Positions 50,192 to 53,450 of a DNA stretch of 64,000 nt are shown piece after piece (the stretch's first letter is position 1; each line of letters starts with the position of its first letter). The translations under genes and the position numbers were made by a program. The notes beneath the pieces were generated by a model. It had not been told where the DNA came from. It searched no databases and saw nothing but the letters and a program-made list of their open reading frames with translations. The DNA is from Mesorhizobium sp. B2-8-5. Lineage in GTDB: Bacteria > Pseudomonadota > Alphaproteobacteria > Rhizobiales > Rhizobiaceae. The stretch lies in assembly GCF_006440675.2 (NCBI RefSeq), contig NZ_CP083951.1, positions 6,357,501 to 6,421,500 on the forward strand, read 5' to 3'.

Positions 50192-51097
50192 ATGAAAAAG
50201 GCCAAGGAAACGGCTGAAGCGGTGCCGGCCACCGCACCGATCAAGATCAAGATCGGCGGCAAGGAGCGCGAGTTCGACATCGACAATCCGGTGCTCCCGG
50301 ACTGGATCGAGGACAACAAGCTCACCGCCGGCGGCTATCCTTACGACAAGAAGATGAAAGGCGAGGAGTACGAAAAGGAACTCGAGACTCTGCAGATCGA
50401 ACTGGTCAAGGCCCAGGCCTGGCTGCAGGCCACCGGCAAGCGGGTGATGGCGCTTTTCGAAGGGCGCGACGCGGCCGGCAAGGGCGGCACGATCTTCGTG
50501 CTGCGGCAATATTTGAACCCGCGCACGGCGCGCAACGTCGCCCTGACCAAGCCGACGCCGACCGAGGCGGGGCAATGGTATTACCAGCGCTATGTCGACC
50601 ATTTCCCGACTTCGGGCGAGTTCGTCACCTTCGACCGCTCCTGGTACAACCGCGCCGGCGTCGAGCCGGTCATGGGGTTCTGCACGCCGGAGCAGCACGA
50701 GAAATTCCTCGACGAGACGCCGCACTTCGAGCGGATGATCTCCAACGAGGGCATCCATTTCTTCAAATTCTGGCTGAACATCGGCCGCGAGACCCAGCTC
50801 GAACGGTTCCATGACCGCCGTTGGTCGCCGCTGAAGAACTGGAAGTTCTCGCCGATCGACATCGCCGGCGTCGGCAAGTGGGACGACTACACCAGGGCGC
50901 GCGACCAGATGATCGAGCGCACGCACAAGGAGTTCTCGCCCTGGATCGCCGTGCGGGCCAACGACAAGCGCCGCGCCCGGCTCGCGGTGATGCAACGTAT
51001 CCTGCTTTCCCTGCCCTATGACGGTCGCGACCTCGATGCCATCGGCAAGCCCGACAAGAAGATCATCGGCGAGGGACCGGAATTCCTGAAGGACTAG
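50192..51097 (+). CDS. ppk2: Polyphosphate kinase 2
   Basis: A 301-residue class I PPK2, a P-loop kinase transferring phosphate between polyphosphate and nucleoside diphosphates. Walker A is [10 protein letters not shown] (residues 91-100); Walker B and lid regions are [18 protein letters not shown] and [19 protein letters not shown] (regions). It is divergent from phoR, which places polyphosphate storage next to phosphate sensing, although I see no clear Pho box in the 138-base gap. A hairpin after the stop probably ends the transcript. Confidence 0.94.
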
Positions 51098-51220: not shown

Positions 51221-51970
51221 TCAGGCAGCCAGGCGGGCGATCCGCTGCAGCCGCTTCAGCGTGGCGTCATCCTGAAGCGCCTGCTGGAACAGCGTGATCT
51301 CGTGGTCGATGCGGTCGCACAAGACGTCCGTGTCGCCCTTGAGCAGGCTGCGCGTCTGCAGCAGGGCCGCCACGGGCTTCTTGGCCAGCTGTTTCGCCCT
51401 CGCCAGCGTCGCTTCCTCGGCGCTGCCTTGCATCACGATCTCGCCGACCAGGCCGAGCGCCTTGGCGTCTTCGACGCCCAGCGTGTCGCCCAGGCAAAAG
51501 AAGCGGAAGGCGCCGGCATAGCCGAGCTTCTGGGGTGCCAGGATGCTGGTCGCCGCGTCCGGCACCAGGCCGAAATCGACGAACGGCACCCTGAAGGTGC
51601 TGCCCCGGGAAGCGATCACCATGTCGCAATGGAACAGGATGGTGCAGCCGACACCGACGGCGTCGCCGTCGACGCAGGCAAGGACCGGCTTGGGGAAGGT
51701 CGCCAACATGCGGAACATGTCGGTGACGGCGGCGATCAGCTCTTGGTGCTTGGTGGCGTCGAGGAACTCCGAGAAGTCGCCGCCAAGGCAGAAGCATCCG
51801 GCAAGGCCGCGCAGCATGACGACGCGGACCTCGTCATTGACGGCTGCCTCGTGCAAGGTCCTGGCAAGGCTCGCATAGGCATGCCTGTCGAGCACCGGCC
51901 GGCCATCATGCGAGGACACGGTGACGACCAGCGTATGGCCGCGCAATTCCGGTTCGGGATGGAAACTCAT
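51221..51970 (-). CDS. Enoyl-CoA hydratase/isomerase (crotonase) family protein beside luxI
   Basis: A 249-residue crotonase-fold protein. Conserved parts are VVMLRGLAGCFCLGGDFSEFLD (oxyanion region) and CVDGDAVGVGCTILFHCDMVIAS, followed by FRVPFVDFGLVPDAAT. Position-by-position, the usual catalytic Glu of hydratases is not obvious at the VGVGCTIL or FGLVPDAA loop (Asp is present instead). I chose ATG 51970, preceded by GGAGG; the frame upstream is not coding. It overlaps the end of luxI's operon with only 11 bases between them, so it is probably co-expressed and may modify the acyl chain of the signal. Confidence 0.85.
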   Translation of the reverse strand: MSFHPEPELRGHTLVVTVSSHDGRPVLDRHAYASLARTLHEAAVNDEVRVVMLRGLAGCFCLGGDFSEFLDATKHQELIAAVTDMFRMLATFPKPVLACVDGDAVGVGCTILFHCDMVIASRGSTFRVPFVDFGLVPDAATSILAPQKLGYAGAFRFFCLGDTLGVEDAKALGLVGEIVMQGSAEEATLARAKQLAKKPVAALLQTRSLLKGDTDVLCDRIDHEITLFQQALQDDATLKRLQRIARLAA

Positions 51971-51981
51971 GACCGCCTCCA

Positions 51982-52620
51982 TCACGAAGCCTGCTTGAGG
52001 CCGAGCAGACCGGGATAACCCCGGTTCAGCACCGGCAGGTGGTGGTTGCGGCGGGCCCGCACGACATCGAGCGTATGCTCGGTGAAGGTGAGCAGCGTCG
52101 CCACGACCTGCTGGTTGCCATAGGTGCGCTGGTAGCCGAGCGGCTTTGCCAGGAAGTGCAGTTGCAGCGCTCGCAGCACCCACATCGGCTCGAACTCGAT
52201 GATGACCTGATTGACGGAGCGCTTGAGGCCCCATTCGACGAAGCCAGCGATCAGTTCGGTGCCGACCGTCGAGACGCCGCGTTTGCCGTCGCGAAAACCC
52301 GGAGCCACCGCGTAGCGGGTCAGTTCCCAGACATTCGGCCCCGAGGGAGACGGTCCCTCACAGAGATCCGACAGCACGTCCGTGAGCAGATGCGGCCGTG
52401 TGGTCGGCAGCATCCGCTGGTAGCCAGCCAGCTCGCCGTTGCGGATGACGAGGTGATGCTCGGCCTCGTCATGATCGAACTGGTCGATCTCGAGCTGGTC
52501 CGGACGATCAAGATCGGTCCATCCCATCTCCTCGACGAAGATCTTGTAGCGCAAGCGATAGACCGCCTCCCAGAGGTCGGGACGTTCCATCAATTCCTGA
52601 GTGGTAAGGGCAAAAAGCAT
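51982..52620 (-). CDS. N-acyl-homoserine lactone synthase, LuxI family
   Basis: A 212-residue autoinducer synthase. All hallmark residues are present: Arg24, Phe28, Trp34, Asp46, Asp49, Arg69, Glu99 and Arg102 (YRLRYKIF, GW, EIDQFDHDEAEHH, YQRM, WELTRYAV). It makes an acyl-homoserine lactone from S-adenosylmethionine and an acyl donor; chain type cannot be read from sequence. AGGAGA precedes the ATG. It is followed by a crotonase-family gene and preceded by a luxR-type gene on the same strand. Confidence 0.94.
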   Translation of the reverse strand: MLFALTTQELMERPDLWEAVYRLRYKIFVEEMGWTDLDRPDQLEIDQFDHDEAEHHLVIRNGELAGYQRMLPTTRPHLLTDVLSDLCEGPSPSGPNVWELTRYAVAPGFRDGKRGVSTVGTELIAGFVEWGLKRSVNQVIIEFEPMWVLRALQLHFLAKPLGYQRTYGNQQVVATLLTFTEHTLDVVRARRNHHLPVLNRGYPGLLGLKQAS

Positions 52621-52699
52621 TAGCCGTCTCCTAGGCTTAAGAGGAAGATACGGCCGTGATGTCCCTTAAAATATTGCGCGAATGCGCAGGCAAGAATTT

Positions 52700-52722
52700 C
52701 TAGGTCGGCACGGCCGACCTAG
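52700..52722. promoter_or_regulatory. Perfect 10-bp-arm palindrome between luxR and luxI
   Basis: CTAGGTCGGC-ACG-GCCGACCTAG lies about 80 bases upstream of the luxI start and overlaps the luxR stop codon. It has no U-run, so it may be a regulator-binding site rather than a terminator. It does not match the classical lux-box CTG-N10-CAG. Confidence 0.6.
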
Positions 52723-53450
52723 CTAATATAGCCACGTCTAATCGCCTCCGCGACTGCCTGCACCCGGTTGGCTGCGCCCAGTTTGCTCTTGGCGTTAAGA
52801 AGATGTTTCTCGGATGTGTGTTCCGAGATGCCTAAAATTTGAGATATCTCCCATTCAGACTTGCCGACTGCGGCCCATTGCAGGCATTCCCGCTCACGCG
52901 CCGTCAATTCTATGTGATCGATGACGCTCTCGGCCTTGGTGTGCAGTTGCATGGCGCGGCCGATCGCATAGGTCGATGCGAGCGACACCATTCCGAATTC
53001 CGCATCCGACAAGTCAACGGATTCGCCACCCAGCGAGACCATGACGATCTGGCCGTCGAGCGTGACCAGCGGAAACGCCAAGCCGTCGCGCAGCTTGAAC
53101 TCGCGGGCGTCGCCCATGACTTCGTCGCTGCTCTTGTCGATCAGGGCGTTTTTTGAAGCGTCCCGCCATTGGAACGGCGCCTGAAGCTGCTTCATGTGAC
53201 TGACGACCGGATCGTGGTCGACATAGTTGCGCGCCACATAGCGCTTCAGCCAATCGCCGGGCCAATCGCAAAGCATCACATGCTGTTTCTGCCGGCCACG
53301 CGGCGTGCCCGGCTGCGGCACGGTTCCCGCCATCAATGCGGTCAGGCCGAAGTTCGAGGTGACGCCGAGCAGCCTCTCGCAGACCGCGGCCGCGGTGCCA
53401 GCATGCTGCAACTGGTCTATGTATTCCAGAGTTCTGTCAAACAGGCCCAT
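52719..53450 (-). CDS. LuxR-family autoinducer-responsive regulator
   Basis: A 243-residue quorum-sensing regulator. The ligand-binding domain keeps the invariant residues equivalent to TraR Trp57, Tyr61, Asp70, Pro71 and Trp85 at 67, 71, 80, 81 and 95. The C-terminal helix-turn-helix (LTARERECLQWAAVGKSEWE) continues with ISQILGISEHTSEKHLLNAK. It should bind the product of the adjacent LuxI and control the luxI-crotonase unit. The stop lies within a perfect palindrome. Confidence 0.93.
   Translation of the reverse strand: MGLFDRTLEYIDQLQHAGTAAAVCERLLGVTSNFGLTALMAGTVPQPGTPRGRQKQHVMLCDWPGDWLKRYVARNYVDHDPVVSHMKQLQAPFQWRDASKNALIDKSSDEVMGDAREFKLRDGLAFPLVTLDGQIVMVSLGGESVDLSDAEFGMVSLASTYAIGRAMQLHTKAESVIDHIELTARERECLQWAAVGKSEWEISQILGISEHTSEKHLLNAKSKLGAANRVQAVAEAIRRGYIS

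Follow-up and report, generated by a model that had tools for sequence, protein, structure and literature searches.

A luxR-luxI-crotonase locus in Mesorhizobium sp. B2-8-5 and a probable isomerase role for its crotonase in making an unsaturated homoserine lactone signal

The luxR-luxI-crotonase locus

The window analyzed here is a stretch of 64,000 nucleotides of the Mesorhizobium sp. B2-8-5 genome (contig NZ_CP083951.1, positions 6,357,501 to 6,421,500). It carries a luxR-type receptor gene, a luxI-type acyl-homoserine lactone (AHL) synthase gene, and a gene of the crotonase superfamily, in that order and on the same strand (Table 1). The Pfam matches of all three proteins score above the gathering threshold. 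The TGA of luxI is followed by TGGAGGCGGTC and then by the ATG of the crotonase gene. The gap is therefore 11 bp with GGAGG placed 5 nt ahead of the start, which bears out the short gap and strong ribosome site described in the first-pass annotation. Translation might instead begin four codons earlier, at an in-frame ATG that overlaps the luxI stop (TGATG).

The spacer between luxR and luxI is 98 bp long and holds both a perfect hairpin and the dyad TGCGCATTCGCGCA. The 110-nt region around the hairpin folds better than shuffled versions of itself (z = -2.95; 4 of 200 shuffles were equally good). No run of T residues follows the stem, and by eye the hairpin is also present in the aligned relatives that have a short spacer.

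Table 1. Features of the luxR-luxI-crotonase locus (positions are those of the window)
Feature	Position	Strand	Evidence
luxR-type receptor gene, R1 orthologue, 243 aa	52719..53450	-	PF03472 (1.5e-25) and PF00196 (1.6e-16)
Perfect hairpin, 10-bp stem, 3-nt loop, overlaps luxR stop codon	52700..52722	-	Sequence
lux-box-like dyad TGCGCATTCGCGCA, center 61.5 bp before luxI ATG	52675..52688	-	Sequence and published I1 repeat
AGGAG ribosome site of luxI	52628..52632	-	Sequence
luxI-type AHL synthase gene, I1 orthologue, 212 aa	51982..52620	-	PF00765 (6.7e-16)
GGAGG ribosome site of crotonase gene	51976..51980	-	Sequence
Crotonase-superfamily gene, mlr5639 orthologue, 249 aa, Thr110/Phe130/Asp138 columns	51221..51970	-	PF00378 (5.7e-34)
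PPK2 gene, next gene past the crotonase, opposite strand	50192..51097	+	

Relation to the published R1-I1-crotonase circuit

An R1-I1-crotonase trio has been described in Mesorhizobium japonicum MAFF 303099 as mlr5637-mlr5638-mlr5639 (Suo et al., 2023; PMC10470506). The product of I1, which was assigned to the acyl-CoA-dependent LuxI subgroup, is N-[(2E,4E)-2,4-dodecadienoyl]-HSL (2E,4E-C12:2-HSL). R1 responds to it very selectively, and the center of an inverted repeat in the I1 promoter lies 61.5 bp upstream of I1 (PMC10470506). Little signal remained after deletion of mlr5639, even when added signal kept I1 induced. A plasmid copy brought the signal back in a strain that grew slowly (PMC10470506). 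The signal structure, the need for the crotonase gene, and the response of R1 have thus been shown by others in relatives of the present strain. Among nearly 500 Mesorhizobium genomes, about 90% have homologues of R1-I1, and two other genera also contain the trio; the discoverers stated that the role of the crotonase was unknown (PMC10470506).

The locus in the window shares with the MAFF 303099 circuit the three genes, their order and strand, the position of the crotonase directly after I1, the length of R1 (732 bp in both), and the dyad centered 61.5 bp upstream of I1. It differs in the luxI-crotonase gap, which is 11 bp in the window and was reported as 8 bp. MAFF 303099 lies outside the 80 loci retained below, and the likeness rests on gene order, R1 length, and dyad position. 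At the locus of Mesorhizobium loti DSM 2626, all three proteins are 84-86% identical to those of the window. We take this strain to be NZP 2213, which has been shown to make 2E,4E-C12:2-HSL.

The trio in the window is an orthologue of the published Mesorhizobium circuit, i.e., another copy of a system already known. The first-pass annotation had stated, correctly, that M. japonicum carries a luxI gene beside an acyl-CoA enzyme and makes a doubly unsaturated C12 lactone (PMC10470506). Its suggestion that the cluster makes a modified signal is supported by the match to the 2E,4E-C12:2-HSL circuit; its suggestion of a distinct quorum-sensing system is not, as the system is the published one (PMC10470506). 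Our literature search found no follow-up to Suo et al., although most subscription papers lay outside the search and such work may exist. Within the literature searched, the assignment of the crotonase as an isomerase, the split between Glu and Asp at its active site, its wider spread, and two natural strains with a broken crotonase gene appear to be new.

Conservation, linkage, and co-inheritance

A scan of the genomes of named species for the crotonase gave 115 relatives, from which the best 80 were kept; 77 of these are titled Mesorhizobium. The crotonase gene directly follows luxI in all 80 of these best loci, with a gap of -4 to 16 bp as judged by match ends. Upstream of luxI, luxR is present in 79, truncated by a contig end in one, and in the single locus without it (L056) the contig begins inside luxI. 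Where luxR is full length or nearly so (78 loci), it is 84-98% identical to that of the window. A sample of 99 genomes of the genus contained luxI (at least 80% identity) in 88 and the crotonase (E-value up to 1e-60) in 86. Both genes were missing from 11 of the 99, and the crotonase was never found without that luxI. Two genomes, G008 and G083, have full-length luxR and luxI and a crotonase gene broken into fragments (L164 and L165). The matches cover residues 198-249 at L164 and residues 1-31 and 203-249 at L165; the breakpoints differ.

The linkage extends beyond the genus. Across 394 genomes of the family, 18 from outside the genus have a luxI of at least 71% identity, and in all 18 the crotonase adjoins it; a luxI of 39-49% identity had the crotonase beside it in one of the 16 fetched loci, some of which were short. 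Among 397 genomes of the order, luxI is followed at no more than about 160 bp by a crotonase (36-45% identical) in 8 of the 18 further loci fetched; the fetch left out one listed match, the second in G687. In 385 genomes of the class, a luxI cut-off of 1e-40 was passed only by the genome of the window and one member of the order. Chance adjacency of luxI and the crotonase is ruled out by the 80/80 loci together with the co-occurrence at the genus and family levels. The median dN/dS relative to the window is 0.116 for the crotonase (53 pairs), 0.105 for luxI (78 pairs), and 0.083 for luxR (76 pairs). These medians exclude pairs whose matches had gaps, were incomplete or shifted, or diverged very little. 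The value for the crotonase is like those of luxI and luxR.

The best 14-mer dyad is centered 59.5-61.5 bp upstream in 77/80 spacers, a count for which about 25 offsets were tried per spacer and which has no shuffled control. The spacer between luxR and luxI is about 275 bp, rather than about 97 bp, in 16 of 79 loci (e.g., L053, L057, L058, and L067). By eye, these long spacers contain the remnant of a duplicated luxR 3' end and a second copy of the control region, which suggests a collapsed tandem duplication. A tblastn match to a similar luxR relic is present at L164. The spacer of L086 is 116 bp long and has an apparent second lux-box-like dyad.

Other luxI copies were also seen. G510 has two (L167 and L168), each about 59% identical to I1; in the fetched stretch, one comes with a crotonase match and the other does not. 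The genome of the window itself has a second luxI homologue (G000:C1:2266427-2266951; L001 and L187) that is 28% identical to luxI of the window. The ORF directly upstream of it (L187, 4551-5321) appears luxR-like by eye, and no PF00378 match was found near this second luxI.

The crotonase active site

Enoyl-CoA hydratases of the crotonase superfamily use two catalytic Glu residues 20 positions apart, and both are kept in FadB (E119/E139 by count) and PaaF (E109/E129). The first-pass annotation had remarked that the hydratase Glu was not evident, and the case is stronger than it claimed. Both positions are replaced, by Thr110 and Phe130, in 100/100 copies (81 close copies, i.e., the window and the 80 loci, and 19 more distant copies from the family). 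Eight residues past the second position is Asp138, which is found in 81/81 close and 18/19 distant copies (99/100 overall); the odd copy, L146, has Glu. The window crotonase thus lacks the hydratase pair and fits the pattern of a single catalytic Glu or Asp seen in PaaG and in enzymes of the Δ3,Δ2-enoyl-CoA isomerase (ECI) type. PaaG of Escherichia coli has the same Thr/Phe/Asp set, and its D144 aligns with both D136 of Thermus thermophilus PaaG and Asp138.

The third position divides the wider family. All 120 listed homologues of the window crotonase, the best 120 of 308, have Thr/Phe/Asp. The luxI-linked crotonases found at the order level have Thr/Phe/Glu in 8/8 cases. Thr/Phe/Glu is also found in all 120 listed homologues, out of 434 matches, of the L171 protein, which is identical to a protein of Hansschlegelia quercus. 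Within the genome of the window, L043 is 37% identical to the crotonase and has Thr/Phe/Glu. Of the 15 PF00378 proteins in this genome, Asp occupies the third column in three besides the crotonase: L035 (Glu/Glu/Asp), L044 (Ile/Phe/Asp), and L047 (Gly/Glu/Asp). L035 (G000:C1:445996-446748), with acids in all three catalytic columns, is a candidate for a second enzyme in diene formation.

The catalytic residues of human Δ3,5-Δ2,4-dienoyl-CoA isomerase, ECH1, include D177, E197, and D205 (PMC10709515). By spacing only (20 and 8 residues), these correspond to Thr110, Phe130, and Asp138. Orthology of the crotonase to ECH1 was ruled out on the same spacing, as the first two acids are missing. None of the 15 PF00378 proteins of the genome has the Asp-Glu-Asp set expected of ECH1, and none has Asp at the first position.

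A profile search of the PDB placed ECI2-type chains first among those named as isomerases (ranks 6 and 9-11), followed by PaaG of T. thermophilus (ranks 12-15). PaaF (rank 17) and the mitochondrial hydratases came below both. Several chains within the top eight are named enoyl-CoA hydratase (4nek, 5ve2, 6lvo, 3qmj, and 2ej5). A structure model of the crotonase built from 54 more diverse sequences has a mean pLDDT of 93.7; a first model from 18 close sequences (mean pLDDT 52.9) was set aside.

In a maximum-likelihood tree of 65 rows, all 34 luxI-linked crotonases fall within one clade of 45 rows (support 100/100), the other 11 rows of which are of unknown gene context. The 25 Asp-type rows form a clade that also has 100/100 support. 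The window crotonase lies among Thr/Phe/Glu homologues, apart from PaaF and from L033 of its own genome. Six changes of state are needed to place the luxI-linked label on the tree, and the linkage may thus have arisen more than once. In this tree, which holds no characterized ECI and carries a long-branch warning for L175 and L176, PaaG falls outside and groups with PaaF and L033, both of hydratase type by their Glu pair. The Thr/Phe/Asp set shared with PaaG therefore need not reflect kinship.

A proposed role for the crotonase

Orthology to close relatives, synteny, co-inheritance, the active-site pattern, and the clade are the observations from which we start. We favor, with moderate confidence, the explanation that the locus is an R1-I1-crotonase orthologue in which the crotonase is a double-bond isomerase that supplies 2,4-dienoyl-CoA to LuxI. 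LuxI (I1) would make an unsaturated long-chain AHL, most likely 2E,4E-C12:2-HSL. LuxR (R1) would bind the signal and activate the luxI-crotonase operon via the dyad at -61.5, so that the circuit is positively autoregulated. The crotonase would supply the acyl-CoA donor, working not as a hydratase but like ECI and PaaG with one carboxylate, Asp138. It would convert 2E,5Z-dodecadienoyl-CoA to the 2E,4E-dienoyl-CoA, directly or through the 3,5-diene, and I1 would then join the conjugated 2E,4E-dienoyl-CoA to S-adenosylmethionine. The isomerase chemistry as such is likely, judging by the active-site residues and the profile similarity.

The substrate is proposed more tentatively, at somewhat less than even odds, as the 2E,5Z-C12 intermediate of cis-vaccenate breakdown. 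Three rounds of beta-oxidation convert cis-vaccenate (18:1 Δ11Z, omega-7) to 12:1 Δ5Z-CoA, from which the following dehydrogenation step forms 2E,5Z-C12:2-CoA. This route would account for the C12 length and for a double bond that lies one position off from that of the signal. Related AHLs have been listed from other bacteria, namely 5Z-C12:1- and 3-oxo-5Z-C12:1-HSL from a marine Mesorhizobium and 2E,5Z-C12:2-HSL from Phaeobacter and Roseobacter (PMC10470506), which suggests that other alphaproteobacteria draw on the same 5Z-C12 pool. Because E. coli has no dienoyl-CoA isomerase, about 10% of its oleate ends up as a dead-end 3,5-diene (PMC9329746). The genome of the window encodes FabA and four PF00724 proteins, which are candidates for FadH.

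Several points weigh against the isomerase reading. The C2-C4 shift of ECI and PaaG turns a 2,5-diene into a 3,5-diene, not a 2,4-diene. Since the further acids of ECH1 are, by spacing, Thr and Phe here, either Asp138 must reach C6 in a remodeled pocket or a second enzyme, perhaps L035, must act. G008 and G083 are natural strains that keep R1-I1 with a broken crotonase gene, and the deletion mutant of Suo et al. still made a little signal (PMC10470506). The hydratase-named chains near the top of the PDB ranking and the place of PaaG in the tree also count against it.

The strongest alternative is that the crotonase is a classical ECI and acts one step off, making 3,5-dodecadienoyl-CoA or another positional isomer, with an unlinked second enzyme finishing the 2E,4E-diene. 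It is favored by the one-acid site of ECI/PaaG type, with its known C2/C4 proton shift, by the Glu that luxI-linked relatives outside the near group have in the place of Asp138, and by L035, which could be the second enzyme. We nevertheless regard it as unlikely: the Asp-Glu-Asp set of ECH1 is missing from the genome's 15 PF00378 proteins, and the Asp of the near group, as against the Glu of the others, with the linkage kept, suggests chemistry adapted to a 2,4-diene product.

It is improbable that the crotonase leaves the AHL precursor untouched and instead protects or drains intermediates of beta-oxidation, its link to signal yield being indirect. The enzyme itself was not assayed by Suo et al. 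and their complemented strain grew slowly (PMC10470506), and the two natural strains would fit such a role. It is opposed by the scarcity of signal in the deletion mutant despite induced I1 (PMC10470506) and by the crotonase never occurring without I1 in the genus sample. A hydratase or dehydratase that dehydrates a hydroxy-enoyl-CoA to the diene is what the family and homologue names and several of the nearest PDB chains would imply, but it is very improbable and was rejected on the missing Glu pair, invariant as Thr/Phe in every copy and kept in FadB and PaaF, and on the place of the crotonase in the tree, away from PaaF and L033.

Returning to the isomerase reading, a broader version can be drawn, which we consider speculative and rather unlikely to hold in full. 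The luxI-linked crotonases may be one clade of signal-tailoring isomerases spread over several families of the order. Glu would have become Asp in the Mesorhizobium branch, where the one-acid site would carry the proton shift one double bond further and so make 2,4-dienoyl-CoA. The Glu branches (Hansschlegelia, Methylopila, and others) would make AHLs with other double-bond positions. To our knowledge, such an extended shift is otherwise known from the multi-acid site of ECH1.

The value of the copy in the window is that it bears on the question left by the discoverers, namely what part the linked crotonase plays in signal production. A concrete and testable answer comes from the active-site pattern together with the grouping of the luxI-linked enzymes in one clade and the C12 length expected from cis-vaccenate. 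If this answer is true, a dedicated acyl-CoA isomerase can tailor AHL signals, and the active site of the linked gene would be of use in predicting the unsaturated AHL of a given genome.

Comparison with known systems

PaaG, the 1,2-epoxyphenylacetyl-CoA isomerase of E. coli and T. thermophilus, belongs to the same family as the crotonase and has one catalytic Asp at the equivalent place. In place of the two hydratase Glu residues it has Phe at the second and, at the first, Thr in E. coli and Ser in T. thermophilus. Proton transfer between C2 and C4 is the task of the catalytic Asp, and PaaG is a homologue of Δ3,Δ2-enoyl-CoA isomerases (PMC7497051). PaaG differs in its aromatic and adipyl substrates and in its separate branch of the tree, which it shares with hydratases.

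The best specifically named isomerase by profile is ECI2. The ECI-like L043, an uncharacterized bacterial Thr/Phe/Glu homologue, shares the Thr/Phe pair with the crotonase; it and the listed distant homologues differ in having Glu where the clade of the window crotonase has Asp. The chemistry of ECI is known to stop at the C2/C4 shift. ECH1 is alike in its type of product, 2,4-dienoyl-CoA, which corresponds to the acyl group of the signal, and in its third acid (human D205), which is spaced like Asp138. It differs at the D177 and E197 positions, which by spacing are Thr110 and Phe130 in the window crotonase.

RpfF and DspI, which make DSF signals, retain the catalytic Glu pair. They are enoyl-CoA-hydratase-like makers of an unsaturated C10-C12 signal (PMC13220807), and in this they resemble the crotonase. 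Their products are cis-2-enoic acids, whereas the crotonase would provide the precursor of an AHL.
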